A DNA stretch of 64,000 nt from Gammaproteobacteria bacterium (GTDB lineage Bacteria > Pseudomonadota > Gammaproteobacteria > Pseudomonadales > Pseudohongiellaceae), in assembly GCA_030427065.1 (NCBI GenBank), contig JAUHWU010000002.1:1-64000 (forward strand), written 5' to 3'. The first letter of the stretch is position 1. The number at the start of each line of letters is the position of its first letter. Made by a program: the position numbers and the translations under genes. Positions 8,460 through 61,169 of this stretch are shown here, piece by piece. The notes beneath the pieces are model-generated. The model worked only from the letters and a program-made list of their open reading frames with translations. It was not told the DNA's origin and searched no databases.

Positions 8460-9234
8460 ATGAATGACCCATTGAACAAGAATACAAAACAACACCTTGA
8501 ATCCTTTTGTAATAGGTTGCTTGATAGGTTGCTTGATAGATTATTGAATATTTTATTTAACATAAATACAGACAAACTTTTTTCAGTACGCCAGGTCCCA
8601 GTATCTTTTTTTATTTATATTCTTTTTACAGGCAATGCCGTCAGCGCCGGCACACTGGAAGTATTATTCACTGACAGTGATGGCAACCCGGTCAGTGACG
8701 CTGTCATAGAAATCATTTCGCCACAGATTGCACTGCCGGATGACTGGGACTTTGCCGGGGGAAATGGATCAACTCGACAGGGAGTTCATCGATAATGTAG
8801 TCACTATTGTGGCTGGAAGTTATGTCAGTTTTCCCAACAGTGATGATATTCAGCATCATGTCTATTCTTTTTCCGACAATAATAGTTTTGAGCTCCCGCT
8901 TTATTCTAGCACAGACACCGATCCGGTATTATTTGATGTGCCTGGCGTTACTGTTGTGGGATGCAATATTCATGACTGGATGCTCGGCTATATCTACGTT
9001 GGTGAAAGTCACCTCATGGGTAAAAGTGATGCCGCTGGCAGCGCACGTATAACAGGGCTTGATGCTGGAGATTACACCTTCAAAATATGGCACGAACGCG
9101 CCAGACGACGTGACCAGTTCAGCACCTATAATGCTTCAGTGAGTGCTGAAGCAACGACTCGGGTTGAAATTGACCTGGGTCGTGACCGTCGTATCCGGCG
9201 TGCACCGACAGGGACAGGCAAGAGTTACCATTAA
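8460..9234 (+). pseudogene. cupredoxin-like exported protein, frameshifted in a G run
   Basis: The product resembles the methylamine-utilisation/plastocyanin-like exported proteins. It has a long signal region (hydrophobic VSFFIYILFTGNAVSA at about residues 47-62) and a carboxypeptidase-regulatory-like beta segment (TLEVLFTDSDGNPVSDA). A cupredoxin fold follows with QHHVYSF and GCNIHDWMLGY. The His, Cys-x2-His and Met of these motifs fit a type-1 copper site. The first frame (8460-8795) runs off after DDWDFAGG. The second frame takes over at about 8758 (GEMDQLDREFIDNVV) and runs to the stop at 9232-9234. The join is a run of five G at 8757-8761; with four G the protein would be one frame of about 257 aa. 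A 12-bp tandem repeat lies in the signal region. It may be a true lesion or a sequencing error. Confidence 0.75.
8514..8549 (+). repeat. 12-bp in-frame tandem repeat in cupredoxin signal region
   Basis: Two exact copies of AGGTTGCTTGAT and a third degenerate copy. Because the unit is a multiple of three it encodes repeated DRLL residues without shifting frame. It lengthens the N-terminal region ahead of the hydrophobic signal core. Confidence 0.8.
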
Positions 9235-50400: not shown

Positions 50401-50518
50401 ACCACTTCCTCACTCTATTTCTGCTAAAAAAAATGTTTTCAAATTAAACCCGCCTTCTGTCAACGGGATTTCGATTACAGCGTTTAAGGTAATAACGTTA
50501 ACAGAGATGGAGTACACC

Positions 50519-50911
50519 ATGAAGAACACAAACAAAAAGAATTTCGTTACAAAGCTATTGTTGGCTGGCACTGGCAGTTTATTAATATCAGGATTTCTGT
50601 CCTCCCCGCTACTTGCCCAGGATGATGAGCGTGAGGGACGTCGGGCAGAAAACCGCGAGCAAATGGCTCAACGTCATGCTGAATTCATGGAGAACAATCC
50701 TGATATTGCAGCCAGACGTGAAGAACACAGGGAGCGCCGTCAGGAATTCAGGGAAAACAACCCTGAAGAAGCCGCTGAGCGTCGTGAGGAACGCAGGGAA
50801 AGATTTCAAAATGGTGAGCGTCCACGCGGGCCAGGCGTTCCCGGCTTTAGAGGCCCAGGATCCCATGACAGGCGTGGCCAGGATGGAGATGTCAGCGGAC
50901 CTGAGGTCTAG
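50519..50911 (+). CDS. small secreted Arg/Glu-rich protein, unknown function
   Basis: Exported protein of 130 aa with a long signal peptide ending LLAQ at about residue 31. The mature part is extremely charged and almost lacks hydrophobic residues. It contains a doubled motif: MENNPDIAARREEHRERRQEF and then RENNPEEAAERREERRERF, two related helical units of about 22 residues. The tail is Gly/Pro-rich (PRGPGVPGFRGPGSHD). The start at 50519 has GGAG at ideal spacing. No family is recognised. It resembles periplasmic helical binding proteins in composition only. It ends 19 bp before a strong terminator and is divergent from sseA. Confidence 0.7.
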   Translation: MKNTNKKNFVTKLLLAGTGSLLISGFLSSPLLAQDDEREGRRAENREQMAQRHAEFMENNPDIAARREEHRERRQEFRENNPEEAAERREERRERFQNGERPRGPGVPGFRGPGSHDRRGQDGDVSGPEV

Positions 50912-50929
50912 GACACTTTTGCAATAATC

Positions 50930-50957
50930 AAAAAGGGGCGAATTATCGCCCCTTTTT
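50930..50957. terminator. bidirectional Rho-independent terminator
   Basis: AGGGGCGA and TCGCCCCT form a perfect stem around a 4-base loop, with A5 on the left and T5 on the right. It serves both the charged secreted protein gene and the convergent ankyrin gene. Confidence 0.92.
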
Positions 50958-50974
50958 GATACTGTCATACGCTA

Positions 50975-52741
50975 TCAGTCCACACCAGAGGGCTGGCAAT
51001 AATCAGGGCCTTCTGCCTGGCCGAATTGTAATGACACTTCAAGACACTCAGTCTCTTCAACTTGCAGGCCTGTCGTAGATGTCAGACTCTCAACCTGATG
51101 CCCGGTTTGTAATTGCCTGGCCTCCGCAATTCGCTTTGGGGTAACGGCTCTTGGATCCATATTCACATAGGAACAGGTAAAGCCCCTGAGTGTGCACTCA
51201 GAAGTCGTATGAGCAATTCCTCGTGCTTCCATTTCTCTTGCCATCAACTCTACAGCGGGCTCATTTAAAACAATGGCATTGTTGGGACGAAAAGTACCCA
51301 CGCCGATCGCATAATCAATTGGCATTAACGGTTCAATACTCGCACCAAATGCGCCATCATTTTTCTTACCCAGATCATAATCCCCAAGGTCCGCCCCCTT
51401 CTGAATAAGATATTCTATGATGGGAACATCCCCCAGGTTTCCTGCAGCCATTAGCGGGGTAATGCCGTAATCATCATGCCAGTTCACTTCCAGGTCATAG
51501 TCTTCAATCAGCAGTTTGATCAAATCCAGTCTTTCACTATAGGGATGTTGGAAATGATATCCATGGATGAAGCCGGTACCCGTCGCGGCGCCCAGTGCCG
51601 TCTCATTATCACTGGACTTAATAAGGGGATCTGCGCCGTACTCCAGCAACAGGCGTGTTAATTCCAGATCGCCAGCAAAGGCGGATCGCATTATGGGCGT
51701 AGCAAAAACAATTCGAGGTGAGCCACCACGCATTCGCGCCCTGGGCGTATCATTAACCAGTTGATTGGGATCAGCCCCGGCATCCAGTAGTTTTTTGACC
51801 AGGGGTAATGGATCATCGGTAACTACCCAGGGAAAATTTGGCGCAGTTTCCATATTACGGCGATCTACGGCCCAAAACAGTGGATTAAAGCCACGTGCAT
51901 CTGCCTGATTAACATCTGATCCCCGGTCAATTAACAGAGAAGCCAGTTCATAATGACCATTGAATATCGCCAGGCCCAGCGCATTTTTCCCATCGGCGGT
52001 AAGGGCATCTATCTGCGCCCCCGAATCCAGAAGTAATTCTGCTGTATCCAGATACCCGTCTCGGGCAGCAAAATGAATAGCTGTTAATTCGCCACTGGCA
52101 TGTTGAATGGAACCAGTTTCATGCGCCAATCTGTCTCGGGGGGGCGAACCTTCAAATCCTCTGGCGGTATCCGGTGGCACAAAAACAGTTCGTGCATTCA
52201 CATCCGCACCATGCTCTAGCAGGAGTTTTGCGACACTGGTATGCCCTTCGGCAACCGCCCACATTAATGGGGTGGTACGTCCCCACTCTTCACGCGCATT
52301 CACTTCAGCGCCATTATCAAGAAGCACTTCCACTGCTTTGGGTATGCCTGTTCTTGCGGCAAGCATCAATGGGGTATCAGCGGTAATAGTCACTCTGGCA
52401 TTAGGGTCAGCGCCGGCGTCCAGTAGCAATTCCAGCATAGCAGCACTGCCATTAATAGCGGCAACTTGCAAAGGCGTGGCTCCTGTCCTGTTAGCTGAGT
52501 TCACATCCGCACCATTACGAATCAATAGCCGCGCTGATTGCACATCGTCCCATTGCGCAGCCCAAAGCAATGCAGTTGCACCATCAATTTGAGGTTCATT
52601 GACATCAAGGCCCTGTCTGACAAGAGCCTGTACCTGAGAAAAATCTCCTGCCTTCATCGCGTCGGCAATTTGCGCACTTTGTGCAGCGGGCACCATGACG
52701 ATGGATAAAAACAGAGAGAGGATCAGTTGGTTGGTTCTCAT
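50975..52741 (-). CDS. exported ankyrin-repeat protein
   Basis: Exported protein of 588 aa with a signal peptide ending AQSAQ at about residue 24. Roughly ten ankyrin repeats follow; clear ones include DGATALLWAAQWDDVQSARLL, TGATPLQVAAINGSAAMLELLL, WGRTTPLMWAVAEGHTSVAKLL and YGITPLMAAGNLGDVPIIEYL. The last 90 residues are not repeats and contain three cysteines (SECTLRGFTCSY, ETECLEV). Ankyrin repeats mediate protein binding, so in this operon it may organise the periplasmic DUF1592/DUF1552 and cytochrome partners. It is the last gene of the four-gene operon and is closed by the terminator at 50930-50957. Confidence 0.87.
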   Translation of the reverse strand: MRTNQLILSLFLSIVMVPAAQSAQIADAMKAGDFSQVQALVRQGLDVNEPQIDGATALLWAAQWDDVQSARLLIRNGADVNSANRTGATPLQVAAINGSAAMLELLLDAGADPNARVTITADTPLMLAARTGIPKAVEVLLDNGAEVNAREEWGRTTPLMWAVAEGHTSVAKLLLEHGADVNARTVFVPPDTARGFEGSPPRDRLAHETGSIQHASGELTAIHFAARDGYLDTAELLLDSGAQIDALTADGKNALGLAIFNGHYELASLLIDRGSDVNQADARGFNPLFWAVDRRNMETAPNFPWVVTDDPLPLVKKLLDAGADPNQLVNDTPRARMRGGSPRIVFATPIMRSAFAGDLELTRLLLEYGADPLIKSSDNETALGAATGTGFIHGYHFQHPYSERLDLIKLLIEDYDLEVNWHDDYGITPLMAAGNLGDVPIIEYLIQKGADLGDYDLGKKNDGAFGASIEPLMPIDYAIGVGTFRPNNAIVLNEPAVELMAREMEARGIAHTTSECTLRGFTCSYVNMDPRAVTPKRIAEARQLQTGHQVESLTSTTGLQVEETECLEVSLQFGQAEGPDYCQPSGVD

Positions 52742-52786
52742 AAGAAGTCTCCGGGTACTTTAAAGCCCTGGTTTAATCTGAAATTT

Positions 52787-53359
52787 TTATTCAAAAAGAT
52801 TTATGCCTCTGGCCCTGCCCAGCCATTCAGCCAGACGCTCAAGCTCTTCATCGTTTAACTGGGCACCCCGCTCTCGCTCACTGACAAGTAGTACACGCCA
52901 ACCCTCGGGGCTGCGTCTGCTACTCATTATAGGATCCAGGGAATGGCAGGAAATGCAGCGGACTTCCATGAAAATTCTGGCATCGGCGTTGTTAAAAAAT
53001 TCAGTAATCTCCGGGGGCACGTAATCTCTCGGAAAAGGGATCGAATCCGGCCCAAAATTACTGCTCAGATAGCTTATTAGAACTGCTTTCTCTTCACTAC
53101 TGATAGTTACCTGACTATCGCCCTCATGTTTTTCTGCCAGCATTGCTTCCCACTCAGCGGAATCAAGTGCAAAGAAGGCATAATCGTCAATACCATGACA
53201 GGATGTGCAGTTGTCCAGCAGTATGTTCCTGATTGGCCCTTCAGGTAATGGGACATCCGGCCAGGTAGGTGGCCTTATCTGGGCAACCAGCTGATTGCAA
53301 AAAAGTAGTGCAAGCAAAACCAGCATTAATCCGAAATTCTTGTTTGAGCTATCACCCAT
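52787..53359 (-). CDS. exported dihaem c-type cytochrome-like protein
   Basis: Exported protein of 190 aa with a signal peptide ending LVAQ at about residue 27. There are two haem-binding sites, NCTSCHGIDDYAFF (about 50-63) and RCISCHSLDPIM (about 133-144). Each is followed by a tryptophan-containing helix (SAEWEAML, PEGWRVLL) of the kind found in small cytochrome domains linked to DUF1592-type proteins. It lies between the DUF1552 gene (33 bp) and the ankyrin gene (45 bp). It probably relays electrons for the operon. Confidence 0.85.
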   Translation of the reverse strand: MGDSSNKNFGLMLVLLALLFCNQLVAQIRPPTWPDVPLPEGPIRNILLDNCTSCHGIDDYAFFALDSAEWEAMLAEKHEGDSQVTISSEEKAVLISYLSSNFGPDSIPFPRDYVPPEITEFFNNADARIFMEVRCISCHSLDPIMSSRRSPEGWRVLLVSERERGAQLNDEELERLAEWLGRARGINLFE

Positions 53360-53392
53360 CAGACTTTACTCCTGTCTTTAAGCTCAGAAATC

Positions 53393-54733
53393 CTAAGCAA
53401 TTGGCAAAAGATGGGTACTCCCACCAATACTGCTTCTTTCAATACCATACAGATGCAGTATGCTGAGCAGCATATTGGCATGTTTTTCAGTATTGTCCGG
53501 AAACAAGATATGACGATTGCCCTTAAACGTCCCATCGATCTTGCCAACCAGAGTAACCGGAATTTTTTCATGGGCATGACGGTGTGAGTTTCCCATATTG
53601 CTTCCCATGTACAACAGAGAGTTATCCAGTATATTACCGTCACCCTCAGGAATATTTTTTAGTTTCTCCAGAAACTCGGCAACAATACTGTAATGGTATC
53701 GATTCATCTTGGCATAGTTGGCGATATTGTCGGGTTTGTCCCCATGATGGGAAGAACCGTGCCATGCGCCGCTTGAACCTGACTGCGGATAGCTAAAGCC
53801 ACTCAAATCGCGCCCCATCATCATGGTGGCAGAACGGGTTATATCCCCCTCGAAAGCAAGGGCGATAAGTTCATACATCAGTCTGAAGTGCAGATCCTTA
53901 TCCTGAGGTATACCAAAAGGGACTTCCTCGCTGGGCTCTTCCACTGAGTTATTAAGGGCAATCTGGATGCGTCGTTCCAGCTCACGGATATTGTCCAGAT
54001 AGTTATCGACCCGTACTTTATCCCCTGCGCCAAGTTCATGTTTAAGTTCAGGGATTTTTGCTGCCACAGAATCAAGAATAGAGGCATCCAGCATGCGACC
54101 ACGCCGTCTTTCCTCAACACTTCCCCCTGTGCCGAACAGTCTTTCAAACGCGACTCGGGGATTTATTTCAGTAGGCAGTGGCTGGGTAGGAGAAATCCAT
54201 GACATGGAATTTGTATAGGCACAGTTATAGCCCCAATTGCAGTTGCCATAATTACCTGCATCCTCCACCCCGAGTTGTAATGAGGAGAGGATGGTGTCGC
54301 GCCCATATTCTTCTGCAATGAGCTGGTCTATTGTTACACCAAGAAAAGGGCTGACAGCATTACGCCGCGGACGGGCGCCGGAAAATATCGCTGCGCCCCT
54401 GGCATGGTTGCCGCCCGGCTCCTCTTCTGTAGAAAAACATTCCGGAATATCCAGACCACTGATCAAGGTGACATATTCGCGCAGGTTTTCCAGTGGTTTG
54501 GTGATGTAGGAAAATTCAAAGTCCGAACCTACTGTAGTGGGACTCCAGTATCCCGGAGCAACACCATGAGGATGCCAGACGCCTATAAAACGTCTTGCCG
54601 GTGCAGCAGATGCCGCTTTAGCCATTGAGGTCATGGCTGGCAACATCGCGTCAAGAAACGGAAGCCCTACGGTTACACCAGCCGATTTAAGAAATGTTCT
54701 ACGTGGCAGCGATTTCCTGGTAATAAATTTCAT
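53393..54733 (-). CDS. Tat-exported DUF1552 protein
   Basis: DUF1552 family protein of 446 aa with a twin-arginine leader (LPRRTFLKSAGVTVGLPFLDAMLP, about residues 9-32). Family motifs are FIGVWHPHGVAPGYW (about 49-63), SGLDIPEC, NHARGAAIFSGARPRRN and SWISPTQPLPTEINPRVAFERLFG, with GSNMGNSHRHAHEKIPVTLVG near the C-terminus. The conserved histidines suggest metal binding, and distant resemblance to sulfatase/phosphatase folds has been noted for related DUF1501-type proteins. No reaction is established. AGGAG precedes the ATG. It follows the DUF1592-type gene by 42 bp, the usual pairing. Confidence 0.9.
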   Translation of the reverse strand: MKFITRKSLPRRTFLKSAGVTVGLPFLDAMLPAMTSMAKAASAAPARRFIGVWHPHGVAPGYWSPTTVGSDFEFSYITKPLENLREYVTLISGLDIPECFSTEEEPGGNHARGAAIFSGARPRRNAVSPFLGVTIDQLIAEEYGRDTILSSLQLGVEDAGNYGNCNWGYNCAYTNSMSWISPTQPLPTEINPRVAFERLFGTGGSVEERRRGRMLDASILDSVAAKIPELKHELGAGDKVRVDNYLDNIRELERRIQIALNNSVEEPSEEVPFGIPQDKDLHFRLMYELIALAFEGDITRSATMMMGRDLSGFSYPQSGSSGAWHGSSHHGDKPDNIANYAKMNRYHYSIVAEFLEKLKNIPEGDGNILDNSLLYMGSNMGNSHRHAHEKIPVTLVGKIDGTFKGNRHILFPDNTEKHANMLLSILHLYGIERSSIGGSTHLLPIA

Positions 54734-54775
54734 ACTGAGCTCCTTAACGGAATATGAGTAATATGGCTGCTGCTT

Positions 54776-57172
54776 TTAATAAGCTGCCAGTTCCTCAACA
54801 TTTTCACTGACTTTCATACGCATTTGAAATTGGGGACTATTGACTACACCCAAAACCAGCGCTGAAAAACGATAATCGTCTTTTTCTGAATCTTTCACTA
54901 TTTTTCTGACGGCAGGCATATCAGAGTATTCAACTCCCCTGCCGACCCCATAAGTCATCAGTTTTTCTACAGCAAAACGCACAAACTGGGGTGAATATTT
55001 AAGCAGCACTTCCCGCAAGCCAACAGGTCCATTGACTGGCGTCCCATCCCAAAGTACTACTTCTGAGTCAATCGGTGTCGATTTACCGCCAAATTGTCGC
55101 GGATGCCCGGCATGAGTCCGGTACTTGCCATCAGCATCGAAATTCTCCAGGGCGAAACCAATACCGTCCATAATGGCATGGCAGGTTGCACAGGGCTCGT
55201 TCTCACGATGCAAAGTAAGCTGGTCGCGCAAGGTTGTTATCTGCTCTTCACCGGTCTCTTCCAGCGCAGGGACATTGGCAGGTGGCGCAGGTGGTGGTGT
55301 ACCTAACAGGTTTTCCAGTACCCATACTCCGCGTTTGACCGGGGAAGTACGGAAGTTTTCTGCCCAGGTCAGGGCCAGAAAACTGCCCTGGCCCAAAATC
55401 CCCCGGCGGTATTCAAATTCGTCACCCAGTTCCACACGGCGAAAATGTGCGCCATAAACGTTTGGCATTCCATAATGCTTGGCCAGCCTTTCGTTGATAA
55501 AAGTGTAATCGGCATCAAGCAGAGTAAGAATACTGCGATCCTCCCGCATAATGCTTTCAAACAACAGTTCTGTTTCCTCCTGGAAACTGTGTCGCAGTTC
55601 GGCATCCCAGTTTGGGTAGTAAATACCGTCAGGAGCTGTCGTGGGCAGATTTCTCAGGTAAAACCATTGCTGGCCAAAGTTTTTAACCAAAGCATCTGCC
55701 CTGGGATCATCCAGCATACGCAAAACCTGCTCCTCAAGAATTTCTGGCTCACTAAGGCGGCCGCTGGCGGCAAGATCAATCAGGGCTTCATCGGGGATAC
55801 TGCTCCAAAGAAAAAATGAAAGCCGGGATGCAAGTTCAAGATCAGTAATGGGATAGACATCCCCATCATTCAATTCGGCGGGTTCATGCTCTCGTCTGAC
55901 CAGAAATTCCGGGTCAGCTAACAAACGACGCAGGGCAAGCTCGATACCATCCTCGAAACTGCCTCCACTGCGACCCTGCGCATAAAAAGTCATCATGGGA
56001 CTGATATCTTCTGAATTGACCGGACGTCGAAAAGCCTGCTTCGCCAGTTTTGAGATAATACGGGTAGCACACTCCGGTTCCTCGTCCGCATTGGCCGGGG
56101 AACAGATAAAGATTTTTTCCTGGCTGACCGAGTTCTCGGGACGTTCGGCGTTAAAGGGGCCCTGTACTTTCATCATGCCGATGGCCGGATGATTGTGAAC
56201 TTGTGGTATGGGATCGTTCTCAACCGACTTTCGGTCATATTGCTGAATCAAACCAATATCCGGCCGGTAGTTGGTCGCCAGGAAGGTAGCCCCCACTAAA
56301 CGCGTACCTGCCTTGACCGGAACCGTCACATCCAGAGAACCGTCCTGACCGCCGCCCATACCCGAGAACACACCGACTCCCGTATATTCAAACAGGTGAA
56401 CGCGCTCGCCATCTATACTCAGTTCAAGTTTTTCTCCTGGTATAAAGCTCCCCATGCCGAAATTCTGCATGGAAAAACTGTACTCCCCATCTGCCGGAAA
56501 ATTATGTTCAACGGCAATACCGCCACGGGTATTCAGGGGCATCCCGTCCAACTGCATGTTCTGGGAATTATCCGCTTCCACGATATAGGTCATTTCGTTG
56601 GGCGAGCTCCAGAAACCTACTGCCATTCTGGCAATCTGGGCAGCGGCTTTGGTATAGGCCTCCAATAAGGTGGGTGATATTGTTAATGAGCCTGCCTGAT
56701 TGTCAAAACCGCGGGCGGAAGAGTCAGCAGGTAAATAGAGCGAAGGATTAATTCGTATACCGGTCAATTCCTCAATAACATTGGCGTATTCACTTTGGTT
56801 TAATCGATGCAATGTTTTGGTGCCGGGATTAATATCGGCGGCGCTGTCTATTTTATTTTCAAGCCACTCTGTTAGCGCCAGGTAATTTCTCTCACTGGGA
56901 CGATCCTGTCCCGGGGGCGGCATCATGCCGGCTCTCATTTTTCTAATGGCTTTTTCCCAGTGTTCGGGATTGCGGGGAATCTCATCAGTCAGGATAGTTT
57001 CAAGATCCAGGCTGCCGGCATAATCTTCGAAATTGTGGCAGCCCACACAATATTCTTCAATTTGGGTGATTTGTCTTCGATCTGTACGGGATTGAGGAAG
57101 TACATTGGTGGAATACAGGAATAATAGTGCCCCTGCAGAAAGCAGTAGTGTTTGGGCTTTAATAAATTTCAT
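54776..57172 (-). CDS. exported DUF1587/1592/1588/1585 multidomain cytochrome-type protein
   Basis: Large exported protein of 798 aa with a signal peptide ending LPQ at about residue 27. The domain order is typical of the planctomycete-type PSD family. An N-terminal haem site is CVGCHNFEDYAGSLDLE (Cys42, Cys45, His46). DUF1587 has LHRLNQSEYANVIEELTGI and a carbohydrate-binding-like beta domain follows. DUF1595 and DUF1592 come next (ELASRLSFFLWSSIPDE, QQWFYLRNL). DUF1588 has RGVWVLENLLGTPPPAPP with a second haem site CATCHAIMDGIGFALENFD. DUF1585 ends the protein (YGVGRGVEYSDMPAVRKIV). Substrate and activity are unknown. It heads the four-gene operon and is divergent from a TetR gene across two palindromes. 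Confidence 0.92.
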   Translation of the reverse strand: MKFIKAQTLLLSAGALLFLYSTNVLPQSRTDRRQITQIEEYCVGCHNFEDYAGSLDLETILTDEIPRNPEHWEKAIRKMRAGMMPPPGQDRPSERNYLALTEWLENKIDSAADINPGTKTLHRLNQSEYANVIEELTGIRINPSLYLPADSSARGFDNQAGSLTISPTLLEAYTKAAAQIARMAVGFWSSPNEMTYIVEADNSQNMQLDGMPLNTRGGIAVEHNFPADGEYSFSMQNFGMGSFIPGEKLELSIDGERVHLFEYTGVGVFSGMGGGQDGSLDVTVPVKAGTRLVGATFLATNYRPDIGLIQQYDRKSVENDPIPQVHNHPAIGMMKVQGPFNAERPENSVSQEKIFICSPANADEEPECATRIISKLAKQAFRRPVNSEDISPMMTFYAQGRSGGSFEDGIELALRRLLADPEFLVRREHEPAELNDGDVYPITDLELASRLSFFLWSSIPDEALIDLAASGRLSEPEILEEQVLRMLDDPRADALVKNFGQQWFYLRNLPTTAPDGIYYPNWDAELRHSFQEETELLFESIMREDRSILTLLDADYTFINERLAKHYGMPNVYGAHFRRVELGDEFEYRRGILGQGSFLALTWAENFRTSPVKRGVWVLENLLGTPPPAPPANVPALEETGEEQITTLRDQLTLHRENEPCATCHAIMDGIGFALENFDADGKYRTHAGHPRQFGGKSTPIDSEVVLWDGTPVNGPVGLREVLLKYSPQFVRFAVEKLMTYGVGRGVEYSDMPAVRKIVKDSEKDDYRFSALVLGVVNSPQFQMRMKVSENVEELAAY

Positions 57173-57349
57173 TATTCCCCCCGGAAAATGTAATCAGCCA
57201 GCTTGGCGCCTGTCTTTATATGCCAGGTATTATTTTTTTATTTCTATAGAGTTTTGGCATTTATTATTAGCTAAATTCAAGCGTTGCGTTTTATCGATGC
57301 AAGTAATAAGAGCGTTACTGAGTACTTGCTTATTATTATGAACGATTGT

Positions 57350-57371
57350 TTACTAAACAACTGTTTAGTAA
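57350..57371. promoter_or_regulatory. TetR-type operator palindrome
   Basis: Perfect 10-base arms TTACTAAACA and TGTTTAGTAA surround an AC centre. It lies in the 257-bp divergent region, 179 bp from the DUF1592-type start and about 60 bp before the TetR start codon. Size and symmetry fit a TetR dimer site. Confidence 0.8.
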
Positions 57372-57392
57372 TCTACATTTACTACCACAACA

Positions 57393-57410
57393 GGTCAATA
57401 CAAATTGACC
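57393..57410. promoter_or_regulatory. second inverted repeat before tetR, candidate operator
   Basis: GGTCAATACAAATTGACC has GGTCAA/TTGACC arms around six bases, 20 bp before the TTG start of the TetR gene, where it could block transcription or be an autoregulatory site. Confidence 0.55.
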
Positions 57411-57429
57411 AAAAATACGGAGCAGATAG

Positions 57430-58071
57430 TTGTCTCAAGCCATCACTACAGAGAAAAGGGCCAGGGTAGCCGAGGTTACAAAGGAAACGATCCTGGTTAC
57501 CGCTTTTTCGCTTTTTGCTGACAGGGGATTTAGCGGAACATCCATGCGCGATATCGCTCTGGCTGTCAAAATTACTCCTGCTGCGCTGTACTATCACTTC
57601 CCCAACAAAAAAGCGCTGCACAAGGCCACTCTAACCTATGCATACAAAGGGCGCTCGACTCCTGCTGTGTCAATGTTATTGGCAAATACGGCAAACAACA
57701 GCCCGCTTGAAACACTGGAACGCTTTATCTTAAGGCTCTGTGAACGGTTCAATGATGACAAGGAGTTCATGCGAATTGTGCAATGGAACCTGTTGGATGC
57801 AGAGCATGATGACAGTATCCGTAATATCCTCATCCATGAGGTTTACCAATCCCACTTTTCCTCACTGGAAACTTTTCTTGAACAAATAGCACCAGAGAAA
57901 AATTGCAACCAGCTAGCTACTTTCATTTTTGGCATGGTAATGCAGAATTATTTCACGCTACCTATCAGAAGATGTATTAAAGGTCACAAACCACAGGAAG
58001 AAAAACCTGGGGAAGTAACGCAGTTAATCATGGACTTGCTCAAAAACGGCCTGGTATCCGATATATCCTGA
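57430..58071 (+). CDS. TetR family regulator
   Basis: TetR-type regulator of 213 aa. The DNA-binding domain (about residues 15-60) reads TILVTAFSLFADRGFSGTSMRDIALAVKITPAALYYHFPNKKAL when joined across its helices, a canonical helix-turn-helix. The C-terminal helical domain (about 75-205) would hold the ligand pocket. Translation begins at TTG; no in-frame ATG lies before the DNA-binding domain. It is divergent from the DUF1592-DUF1552-cytochrome-ankyrin operon and is its likely repressor, acting on the palindromes at 57350 and 57393. The ligand may be that operon's substrate. Confidence 0.88.
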   Translation: MSQAITTEKRARVAEVTKETILVTAFSLFADRGFSGTSMRDIALAVKITPAALYYHFPNKKALHKATLTYAYKGRSTPAVSMLLANTANNSPLETLERFILRLCERFNDDKEFMRIVQWNLLDAEHDDSIRNILIHEVYQSHFSSLETFLEQIAPEKNCNQLATFIFGMVMQNYFTLPIRRCIKGHKPQEEKPGEVTQLIMDLLKNGLVSDIS

Positions 58072-58093: not shown

Positions 58094-59881
58094 TCATTCA
58101 TTATGGAATTTATTAGTCAGCCAGACTGTCTGATAGGGTTTGAGTATGAGGCTTGTCTGCCCTACTTCCAGCTCCTGCTTGCTCAGCAGATCCTGCCAGC
58201 TTTCAGTAATCACCAGATTTAACGAGCTTAACAAAACTTCTCTGGGTTGGGCGGTAATATTATTCAAACAGAAAATACTCTGATCGCGTTTGAGGCTTTG
58301 ACGCCAGAAAGCAAACACTTCGTCGCCGATATGCAGGGTGAACATAATGGCGTTGGGATGAAAAGCCTTTTGCTGTTTACGAATCTTTATCAGGCGTTTC
58401 AGCTCATTAAAAATCCGGCGGTGATGAGTGTCATCCCGCAAGCGCGATTCCAGCTCATCTACATCCCAGTTATGGCGATTAAGCGCCCGGTTATTATTGG
58501 TATGACTAAATTTTTCATAATCATTTTCTGTGCCAAGCAGACTGTGAATATAAAATGCCGGAACCCCCTCAACAGCCAGCATGATGGCATGAATGCAGAT
58601 AAACCTGGCTTCCTGAAACCCGTCATCAGGATTATTCAGTGTGCCCTTAAGCGCATCAAATAAGCTGATATTTATTTCATAGGGCTTCGCCTCACCATTT
58701 TCGAGGGTACGCCATGACACCCTGCCGCCATTATTTTCCATGAGTCCCATAAGATGGCCCAACTCATCCTCCTCAATCAACCCTTCCAGCGGGCGCAGGC
58801 CAATGCCGTCATGTGAGGCAATAAAATTAAAGAAAGTTGTCCCTTTTTGTGCAGGCGGCATACTCATCATCCAGCTTTTCAGCGCATGACAGTTACCGGT
58901 CACCAGCGTGTTCAATAACAGCGGCGGAAGTGAAAAGTTATAGACAAGATGTGCTTCGTTGGCATTGCCAAAATAGGAAATATTTTCCACATTGGGGATA
59001 TTGGTTTCCGTAATGATAATTGCCCCGGGGCTATGATATTCCACCAGCGTTCTGATCAAGCGGACAATTTCATGGGTCTGGTTTAGGTTGAGACAACTGC
59101 TGCCTTCTTCTTTCCAAAGAAATGCCACGGCATCCAGACGAAATATCTTTACGCCTCTCTCCAGATAAAGACGAATGATCTTCACCATCTCAAGAAGCAC
59201 GGCAGGATTTCTGAAGTTCAGGTCAGGCTGATCATGACTAAATGTGCACCAGATATGCTTGACGCCATCGAGAGTCTGTACTTCCCGGAGTATGGGAGTG
59301 GTTCTCGGACGAACCACATTGGACACATCTAAATCCTGGTCCACTGCCAGAAAATAATCCTTCCCCGGACGTTTGTTCATTTTCAGTTGTTCAAACCAGC
59401 GTCCCATTGCCGAACAATGATTGATGACCAGATCAGACATTAAACTGAATTTTTTCGATATCCTGCCTATGTGCCCCCAGTCGCCGTAACTTTCATTAAC
59501 CTGGGTGTAATCAATAACGGCAAAGCCATCGTCAGAGCTGAAGGGAAAGAACGGCAAAATATGTACCCAGGAGATTACATCCTTCAGATGCCTGTCCAGG
59601 AAGCGGCTGAGTGTAACGAGGGGCCTCTCGTCGTCCTTAAGAAAGGAATTGGCATAGGTAATGACGGCAATATCTGTTTCGTTCCAGTTATTTTTGTGCC
59701 AACGGGGTTTTGCACACTCATTGTCCAGGCCCATTTTTTTTAGCAACTGCTCGGTGAGTTTTACCGTATCCAGTTGCGGATAGATAAGTGACAGATGCCC
59801 GATCACTCTATGCTGCAATTCCTTTTGCAACTGTTGCTTTCGTTCTTTCCCTTGCTGTTCTTTTTTTCTGGATTTAGTCAT
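58094..59881 (-). CDS. GH13_18 glycoside phosphorylase, probably glucosylglycerate phosphorylase
   Basis: GH13 subfamily 18 phosphorylase of 595 aa, the sucrose phosphorylase / glucosylglycerate phosphorylase group. The nucleophile is Asp250 (FRLDAVAF), the acid/base is Glu292 (ITETNIPN) and the transition-state stabiliser is Asp358 (SHDGIG). HILPFFPFSSDDGFAVIDY is the subfamily hallmark near residue 108. It is longer than sucrose phosphorylases (about 500) and closer to glucosylglycerate enzymes, with an extra basic N-terminus. The neighbouring GpgS and phosphatase genes make glucosylglycerate the likely substrate: phosphorolysis would give glucose-1-phosphate and glycerate. Sucrose cannot be excluded from sequence alone. 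Confidence 0.85.
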   Translation of the reverse strand: MTKSRKKEQQGKERKQQLQKELQHRVIGHLSLIYPQLDTVKLTEQLLKKMGLDNECAKPRWHKNNWNETDIAVITYANSFLKDDERPLVTLSRFLDRHLKDVISWVHILPFFPFSSDDGFAVIDYTQVNESYGDWGHIGRISKKFSLMSDLVINHCSAMGRWFEQLKMNKRPGKDYFLAVDQDLDVSNVVRPRTTPILREVQTLDGVKHIWCTFSHDQPDLNFRNPAVLLEMVKIIRLYLERGVKIFRLDAVAFLWKEEGSSCLNLNQTHEIVRLIRTLVEYHSPGAIIITETNIPNVENISYFGNANEAHLVYNFSLPPLLLNTLVTGNCHALKSWMMSMPPAQKGTTFFNFIASHDGIGLRPLEGLIEEDELGHLMGLMENNGGRVSWRTLENGEAKPYEINISLFDALKGTLNNPDDGFQEARFICIHAIMLAVEGVPAFYIHSLLGTENDYEKFSHTNNNRALNRHNWDVDELESRLRDDTHHRRIFNELKRLIKIRKQQKAFHPNAIMFTLHIGDEVFAFWRQSLKRDQSIFCLNNITAQPREVLLSSLNLVITESWQDLLSKQELEVGQTSLILKPYQTVWLTNKFHNE

Positions 59882-59948
59882 AACCCTTTTTTACTGCCTG
59901 TTTTGAATAAAGCCTTGTACTGACGGCATAATCAACTGATCCGGAACT

Positions 59949-61169
59949 TTACTGGTACTGCTTTAAATCCTGCTCTACCGCAGCCACAAAATTATCACCC
60001 AATTCAGGCAGTGCACTATTTACGCGTGTCCAGCTTGGAATAAACGGGGTTTCCTGGGGATTTTCGAGAAAGTAATGCCCTGCTTTCATTATATTTTCAG
60101 CAAACAATTCCACCGCTTTTTCTTCATTATGTATATCCAGGGTAAGACCATTGATCATGGCATCGCTGTGATAGGAGTCGACCATGTCCAGTGCCATACG
60201 ATAATAAGTCGCTTTGAGAGTACGAAAGGTTTCCAGTGAAAGAACCACGCCGGTAGTTGCCAGCTTGCGGAAAATTGCTTTGCTGATATCAATGGACATG
60301 CGGGACAGACCACCAGTTTCATCATCATAGGAGACATCCTGATGCTTGTGGTCATAGATATCAGCAATATCTACCTGGCACAGGTGGTTATTTGAGTAGT
60401 TGCGATATGTCTCGGAAAGTACGCCGATTTCCAGACCCCAGTCACTTGGAATGCGAATACCTTGCAGCACATCCACTCGCATGGAAAACTCACCTGCCAG
60501 GGGATAACGGTAGCTGTCCATATATTCAAGATAGTCATGCATACCAATAATTTTTTTCAAGGCCCTGAGCAGAGGCGTGACCAGGAGTCGGCAAACACGC
60601 CCATTGATAGTGCCATTTGCCACGCGGGCATAGTAGCCCTTACAGAATTCGTAGCTGAATGCAGGATTGGCGACCGGATAAATAAGTCTGGCAAGCATGT
60701 CACGGCTATAGGTAACAATGTCGCAGTCATGCAAGGCGATCGCTTCGGCCTTTCCCTGGTTTAACAGGTAGCCCATGCAATACCAGACATTTCGCCCTTT
60801 ACCCATCTGCTTGGGTTCAAGCCCCAGCTTCGACAATTCACCATCCAGCGCTTTGAGTCTGGGTCCATCATTCCACAACACGACGTGCTCCTGGGGCAAC
60901 ACCTTGAAAAACTCCAGGGCTTTCTTGTACTGTGACTCATCAGCCCGATCGAGACCAATGACAATCTGGGTCAGGTAGGGAACCCTGGCAAGCTCAGCAA
61001 CAATATTATCCATGGCCGGTCCTTCAAGCTCTGAGTACAGACAAGGCAGAATCAGTGCCATAGGCCGGGTCTTCGCGAACTGCACAAGTTCTGCCTCTAA
61101 TGCTTCTACAGGCCTGTCGCTAAGATTATGCAGCGTCGTGATGACACCGTCTTGATGAAAATCTCCCAT
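59949..61169 (-). CDS. gpgS: glucosyl-3-phosphoglycerate synthase (GT81)
   Basis: Retaining glycosyltransferase of 406 aa, family GT81, which joins glucose from an NDP-glucose to 3-phosphoglycerate, the first step to the osmolyte glucosylglycerate. The GT-A metal motif is Asp148-x-Asp150 in LHDCDIVTY. GLDRADESQ, the nucleotide-binding MGKGRNVWYCMGYLL and SDWGLEIGVLSE (catalytic-side acidic region) match the family. It is translationally coupled to the HAD phosphatase upstream (TAATG) and precedes the phosphorylase gene by 67 bp. Mannosyl-3-phosphoglycerate synthases belong to GT55 and look different, supporting the glucosyl assignment. Confidence 0.92.
   Translation of the reverse strand: MGDFHQDGVITTLHNLSDRPVEALEAELVQFAKTRPMALILPCLYSELEGPAMDNIVAELARVPYLTQIVIGLDRADESQYKKALEFFKVLPQEHVVLWNDGPRLKALDGELSKLGLEPKQMGKGRNVWYCMGYLLNQGKAEAIALHDCDIVTYSRDMLARLIYPVANPAFSYEFCKGYYARVANGTINGRVCRLLVTPLLRALKKIIGMHDYLEYMDSYRYPLAGEFSMRVDVLQGIRIPSDWGLEIGVLSETYRNYSNNHLCQVDIADIYDHKHQDVSYDDETGGLSRMSIDISKAIFRKLATTGVVLSLETFRTLKATYYRMALDMVDSYHSDAMINGLTLDIHNEEKAVELFAENIMKAGHYFLENPQETPFIPSWTRVNSALPELGDNFVAAVEQDLKQYQ

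Follow-up and report, generated by a model that had tools for sequence, protein, structure and literature searches.

A putatively TetR-controlled DUF1592-DUF1552 operon with cytochrome and ankyrin genes, one of a paralogous set of seventeen in a Pseudohongiellaceae genome

A stretch of 64,000 nucleotides (positions 1-64,000 of contig JAUHWU010000002.1, hereafter the window; its genome is labelled G000) holds a four-gene unit on the minus strand that encodes, in order, a DUF1592-type protein (57172-54776), a DUF1552 protein (54733-53393), a cytochrome (53359-52787) and an ankyrin-repeat protein (52741-50975), with a TetR-family gene divergent from it. A sequence-only reading had proposed these five open reading frames (ORFs), the four exported products as one operon with short gaps and a terminator, under the control of TetR. 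The ORF list contains all five, the gaps within the unit measure 42, 33 and 45 bp, and a hairpin followed by a T run closes it, as proposed. The four-gene operon is kept in all six congeneric genomes and in a sister genus.

54776-57172, minus strand: DUF1592-type protein, 798 amino acids (aa), with an N-terminal CxxCH domain, PSD3, a CBM-like sandwich, PSD5, PSD4, PSCyt3 and PSD2 (ORF list, Pfam, model)
53393-54733, minus strand: DUF1552/HXXSHH protein, 446 aa, with a twin-arginine signal (Pfam, model)
52787-53359, minus strand: exported cytochrome, 190 aa, with two CxxCH motifs (Pfam, motif conservation)
50975-52741, minus strand: exported ankyrin-repeat protein, 588 aa (Pfam)
57430-58071, plus strand: TetR-family regulator, 213 aa, TTG start, divergent from the operon (ORF list, Pfam)
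50931-50956, minus strand: operon terminator, a hairpin and then a T run on the operon strand (missed by a simple terminator scan)

Pfam assigned the architecture PSD3-PSD5-PSD4(DUF1592)-PSCyt3-PSD2 to the first product, all above cut-offs, HXXSHH/DUF1552 to the second (254.7 bits, with the HXXSHH motif present) and TetR_N to the regulator (57.2 bits). Judged by eye from their N-termini, all four operon proteins begin with export-like signals; a hydrophobic N-terminus precedes the ankyrin repeats, and R11 and R12 of the twin-arginine signal of the DUF1552 protein are both invariant in 26 sequences. Haem sites had been expected in at least two of the products, and the DUF1592 protein and the cytochrome each carry two CxxCH motifs, those of the cytochrome being invariant as well. 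The cytochrome bears a weak similarity to the haem domain of quinohemoprotein amine dehydrogenase, falling below the cut-offs for that family (23.7 vs 25.2 bits in Pfam, 22.9 vs 274 in NCBIfam).

57035-57049, minus strand: first haem motif of the DUF1592 protein, CVGCH, residues 42-46 (invariant in 24 relatives)
55178-55192, minus strand: second haem motif, CATCH, residues 661-665 (invariant)
56144-56602, minus strand: predicted beta-sandwich, CBM35/CBM36/CBM6-like, residues about 191-343 (model, Z about 9)

Operon and tetR are separated by 257 bp, which contain a predicted operator and a promoter whose -10 element extends into the operator palindrome.

57350-57371, no strand assigned: predicted operator, a perfect 10-2-10 bp palindrome, TTACTAAACA-AC-TGTTTAGTAA (footprinting across relatives)
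57370-57398, minus strand: operon promoter, -35 TTGACC (57398-57393), 17-bp spacer, -10 TAGATT (57375-57370) (conserved in L089, L093 and L094)

The 22-bp palindrome, across which TetR gene and operon had been said to face each other, occurs only once in the 3.42-Mb genome, and a palindrome with 10-bp arms arose in 0.4% of simulated intergenic stretches of the same composition. Among the six congeneric genomes, TetR orthologues are found only in G000, G004 (61% identical) and G005 (50%). We scored a footprint of 32 fixed promoter and operator positions at the operon in G000, in G004 (locus L089) and in G005, which has two operon copies (L094 and L093). Mismatches in these TetR-bearing genomes numbered 0 in the window, 2 in L089, 7 in L094 and 1 in L093, the last despite having no adjacent tetR. 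Promoter and palindrome were absent at the operon in two TetR-less congeneric genomes and decayed in the third (G002, locus L091), a close relative with the same upstream neighbour and no TetR gene in between, which showed 9 mismatches. All other DUF1592 genes tested gave 14-17, the background level, and the exact core motif was found in the six-genome scan only at the operon promoters of G000, G004 and G005. As regulator and site come and go together, there is good evidence for the proposed control of the operon by TetR, which is well supported by these sequence comparisons, in G005 also in trans; both DUF1592 copies of G005 break at the same assembly point, so one contig may represent the downstream parts of both. 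Between G000 and G004, the operon proteins are 89-97% identical and TetR only 61%. TetR is thus far more diverged than the proteins of the operon, suggesting that the regulator, and perhaps its ligand, changes fast. A dedicated repressor makes a specific putative inducer a reasonable expectation.

Three further observations concern the regulatory region and its motif. A second inverted repeat (57381-57398, GGTCAAT-N-ATTGACC-like) overlaps the operon -35; neither L089 nor L094 retains it. In L094, the 5' leader of the operon, from operator to start codon (about 8750-8900), contains about eight tandem copies of AGAAACCACTA. An operator-like site with 2 mismatches at G000:C260:1159, before an aminotransferase gene, was set aside as probably due to chance; on the same contig (L226, about 1260-1360), a short Arg-rich leader-like ORF precedes an acetylornithine-aminotransferase-like gene and might be an attenuation leader.

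The sequence-only reading had treated this unit as standing alone, which it does not: the window genome has 17 matches for PSD2/DUF1585, 17 for HXXSHH/DUF1552 and about 20 homologues of the ankyrin gene. HXXSHH copies number 12-17 per genome in the window genus, 10-21 in the sister genus, 3-5 in another genus and mostly 0-3 elsewhere. Most of the copies in G000 cluster with ones from G005 or from the sister genus, indicating that the set is old and not a recent burst. Across 70 DUF1552 loci from the two genera plus one further genome, an ankyrin gene was present at 66, a metallo-beta-lactamase (MBL)-fold gene at 21 and a dihaem cytochrome at 16, the latter two never together (0/70; P 0.001 if loci are taken as independent, which these are not). 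In a tree of 75 DUF1552 proteins, all cytochrome-bearing operons fell into one clade (support 100/100), which includes the Acidobacteria gp5 locus L095 and in which the window belongs to a terminal group formed by congeneric genomes. The ankyrin is therefore a near-constant part of the system, TetR and the dihaem cytochrome are clade-specific extras, and cytochrome or exported MBL-fold gene occupies an exchangeable accessory slot beside the core module. Of the two genes whose co-occurrence with the pair was to be surveyed, the ankyrin held up and TetR did not: as a rare add-on it goes with the operon in three of the six congeneric genomes and with none of the other paralogous operons examined, so that a repressor is not typical of the system. 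In L092 (2757-13424), the DUF1592 and ankyrin genes are tandemly duplicated around one DUF1552-cytochrome pair.

Nine of the 11 strong MBL-fold homologues of the genome adjoin these operons, and the MBL-fold proteins match the quinoprotein-relay hydrolase models TIGR04558/04559 below cut-off. Besides exported MBL-fold hydrolases, recurrent neighbours are pyrroloquinoline quinone (PQQ) alcohol dehydrogenases with haem, DUF6152 proteins, TonB receptors, flavin enzymes and xylose-isomerase-like proteins. Cytochrome-type operons of the sister genus adjoin flavin-dependent-halogenase-like and aromatic-hydroxylase-like proteins and long TonB-receptor-like ORFs; in L146, L148 and L151, Trp-halogenase-family genes lie beside the cytochrome-type operon. 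A neighbour family of PDxSGxW-type exported proteins (26/74 loci), which have no Pfam assignment and often lie near DUF6152 genes, was dropped as a clue because G000 holds about 56 matches.

Sequence searches of the PDB returned no solved relative of either the DUF1592 or the DUF1552 protein, so both were modelled. The DUF1552 model (predicted local distance difference test, pLDDT, 80; predicted template modelling score, pTM, 0.85) aligned with a nucleotide pyrophosphatase/phosphodiesterase (NPP) at Z 16.4 over 240 residues (root-mean-square deviation, rmsd, 3.4), with sulfatases tied just behind, and Foldseek matched it to the alkaline phosphatase superfamily at E 4.5e-6. In the model, DUF1552 has the alkaline-phosphatase-superfamily fold. 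H110 and M380 are invariant in DUF1552 sequences, and we assigned metal-ligand positions by order along the chain, not by distances. In this assignment the nucleophile position looks to be held by H110, the DxxxH ligand pair appears as H325xxSH329, after which the family is named, the Asp-His ligand pair seems to have become N379-M380, and the last ligand His may be H408. The metal site might thus have been rebuilt, with His, Asn and Met in place of the usual aspartates and nucleophile.

53744-53761, minus strand: HGSSHH motif at residues 325-330, proposed to stand in for the DxxxH metal ligands (conservation observed, mapping by residue order)

Distant relatives of the pair occur on plasmids. 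With the DUF1592 protein as query against 72,556 plasmids, 16 records matched, 12 of them Sphingobium; among the Sphingobium plasmids, of which the collection has at least 69 records, only those of S. herbicidovorans MH and 11 Tom strains carry the pair. In the same collection, orthologues of the DUF1552 protein of pMSHV (S. herbicidovorans) are 87-93% identical in the 11 Sphingobium Tom strains, with nothing else above 60%. The Tom isolates and S. herbicidovorans MH degrade alpha-tomatine (PMC10653915); no cytochrome and no DUF is mentioned in the main text of that paper. The pMSHV genes run in the order TetR, TonB receptor, AraC, two unknowns, DUF1592, DUF1552, cytochrome c, cytochrome b and a short-chain dehydrogenase/reductase (SDR), followed by HsaC-like, HsaA-like, Rieske and flavin-monooxygenase-like genes. 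On pTomTYG64a, a TonB receptor and unknowns precede DUF1592, DUF1552, cytochrome c' and cytochrome b561, beyond which the opposite strand encodes acyl-CoA dehydrogenases (one nearest IpdE2), a (2Fe-2S) protein and a CoA ligase. These gene orders, in which the steroid family assignments lie below NCBIfam cut-offs, suggest that the Sphingobium pair feeds electrons via dedicated cytochromes in steroid-type catabolism. One Sphingobium plasmid, AP027328.1, also carries a second DUF1592-DUF1552 pair (L230:16448-21187), which lies beside an IclR regulator and hydroxypyruvate/glycerate metabolism genes, unlike the steroid-type context.

We favour, at about an even chance of being right, a model in which TetR represses, at this locus, a periplasmic oxidoreductase module that acts on one imported organic compound. 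A ligand-free TetR dimer on 57350-57371 would cover the -10 end and the start site and block the operon, until a small molecule, probably the substrate itself or something chemically related, released it. The consistently paired DUF1592 dihaem protein and its DUF1552 partner would then jointly oxidise an organic molecule in the periplasm, and electrons would pass via the 190-aa dihaem cytochrome, whose haem motifs and linkage to one clade fit such a role, towards the respiratory chain. The near-constant ankyrin protein might bind or organise the partners or help to mature the haem enzyme. The genome has about 17 such modules, presumably with different substrates. A redox module is supported by the recurrent neighbours, which are redox or uptake genes. 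Going further, it is possible, if doubtful, that DUF1592-DUF1552 is a new two-protein periplasmic oxidoreductase, in which a dihaem protein works with an alkaline-phosphatase-fold partner whose His-rich metal site was remade for redox or metal chemistry, with paralogues for steroid-like or other natural products, ankyrin scaffolds and an exchangeable accessory slot.

Several points weigh against these proposals. Half of the congeneric genomes have the operon without TetR. The operon has no membrane cytochrome or quinone-linked partner, which makes the electron exit route a guess, and no reaction was found for any DUF1592/DUF1552 (PSCyt/PSD) member. A profile comparison of DUF1552 with 16 sulfatases gave no alignment, and residue order is what we infer the rebuilt metal site from. 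The Sphingobium DUF1592 proteins are about 28% identical to the window protein and short (551-565 aa), with one CxxCH and without the N-terminal haem and sandwich regions, and no HsaA-, HsaC- or Rieske-like homologue was detected at E 1e-15 in the window or in the fetched loci of its genus and the sister genus. Given this short, distant Sphingobium DUF1592 and the lack of steroid-type genes near the genus operons, a steroid substrate for the window operon is only a lead.

Among the alternatives, a carbohydrate-directed redox module, in which the pair oxidises sugars or uronates or exchanges electrons with oxidative polysaccharide enzymes, a role suggested for Verrucomicrobia PSCyt genes and for Cbp2D, survives best, and we consider it rather unlikely. 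The sandwich of the DUF1592 model (pLDDT 82, pTM 0.84) best matches CBM35, CBM36 and CBM6 (Z about 9, rmsd about 3, about 105 residues), and such sandwiches fill the structure-match list of the model, which therefore leaves its helical part uncovered. Other sandwich proteins score only slightly below, so that carbohydrate binding is no more than suggested. The sulfatase-like fold of the DUF1552 model and the xylose-isomerase-like neighbours would also fit, as would precedents elsewhere: Verrucomicrobia PSCyt genes with CBM domains near sulfatases (PMC5615132), Cbp2D of Cellvibrio with DUF1587 and two cytochrome domains (PMC8981238), and, from a straw metasecretome, a DUF1592 protein of Cellvibrio that carries CBM2 (PMC6004670). 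However, no glycoside hydrolases were seen among the recurrent neighbours, and the Sphingobium clusters look steroid-type. The genome has no match to LPMO_10, the one family of lytic polysaccharide monooxygenases (LPMOs) searched, and a Cbp2D-type role of the pair as LPMO electron donor found no support.

Much less probable is a periplasmic defence against peroxide or other oxidants, with the dihaem proteins serving as peroxidase and the ankyrin helping in the manner of AnkB. Peroxidases are common among dihaem proteins. AnkB and Cj1386, both exported ankyrins, act as helpers of haem catalases (review: PMC10294975). Yet a set of seventeen diversified copies, flanked by uptake and catabolic genes, is better explained by different substrates than by one oxidant, Pfam found no catalase or peroxidase family match among the operon genes, and the 588-aa ankyrin is unlike the AnkB type, which is small. 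That TetR mainly regulates itself or other neighbours, the operon being expressed independently, might explain why close relatives retain the operon without TetR and why a flavin reductase gene comes after the TetR gene in G004 and a TonB receptor gene lies beside it in G005, but is improbable given that the operator overlaps the operon promoter, is conserved with it, also at the second copy without adjacent tetR, and has disappeared or decayed in genomes without TetR.

Two neighbours of the module in the window can be added. Upstream, at 58094-61169, lies an amylosucrase/sucrose-phosphorylase-like GH13 gene with a glycosyltransferase-like gene upstream, for which glucosylglycerate metabolism is possible; in L091, which lacks the TetR gene in between, the same GH13 gene borders DUF1592. 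A convergent gene at 50513-50911 encodes a small exported protein rich in Glu/Arg repeats, and its relatives adjoin the same operon in L137 (4658-5113) and L139 (13216-13593).

PSCyt/PSD domains were first described in planctomycetes, and aquatic and soil bacteria can have tens of copies in a single genome. The pair and its high copy number are already known and unexplained (PMC2754498; PMC5615132), in agreement with the earlier description of the pair as widespread but uncharacterised (PMC5615132), and a literature search for DUF1592 together with DUF1552 returned no paper. As far as our searches show, the following are new: the triad with the ankyrin, an accessory slot with exchangeable contents, the unit of TetR and operator with its gain and loss, the DUF1552 fold with a metal site that may have been rebuilt, and the connection to Sphingobium strains that degrade tomatine. 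A candidate repressor and operator would allow one unit to be switched on and its inducer screened, the DUF1552 fold may explain the name-giving HXXSHH motif as a rebuilt metal site, and cultured Sphingobium strains carry the pair in steroid-type clusters open to deletion. An old unknown thereby becomes testable.

Compared with known systems, the DUF1552 model shares the overall fold of the alkaline phosphatase superfamily (NPPs, sulfatases), with aspartate ligands and nucleophile seemingly replaced by His, Asn and Met. AnkB and Cj1386 (PMC10294975) are likewise ankyrins encoded beside a haem enzyme, AnkB being periplasmic, but their partner is a catalase, whereas the 588-aa protein here has DUF1592/DUF1552 partners and no catalase match in its operon. 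Cbp2D of Cellvibrio japonicus (PMC8981238) resembles the module in its DUF1587 and two c-type cytochrome domains, its redox role and its carbohydrate context; it differs in being one multidomain polypeptide, which includes YceI-like quinone-binding and CBM domains and is linked to LPMOs, whereas the window genome is without LPMO_10. The Sphingobium plasmid modules (pMSHV, pTomTYG64a) share the collinear pair followed by dedicated cytochromes, and pMSHV also a TonB receptor and TetR-family gene nearby, but have a short one-CxxCH DUF1592, no ankyrin and steroid-type genes alongside. Closest are the PSCyt/PSD gene pairs of Planctomycetes and Verrucomicrobia (PMC2754498, PMC5615132), which are alike in domain set, exported partner family and many copies per genome. 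In contrast to these, the window type nearly always adds an exported ankyrin and has an accessory slot filled by a cytochrome or an MBL-fold gene, and the window unit has a TetR with a footprinted candidate operator.

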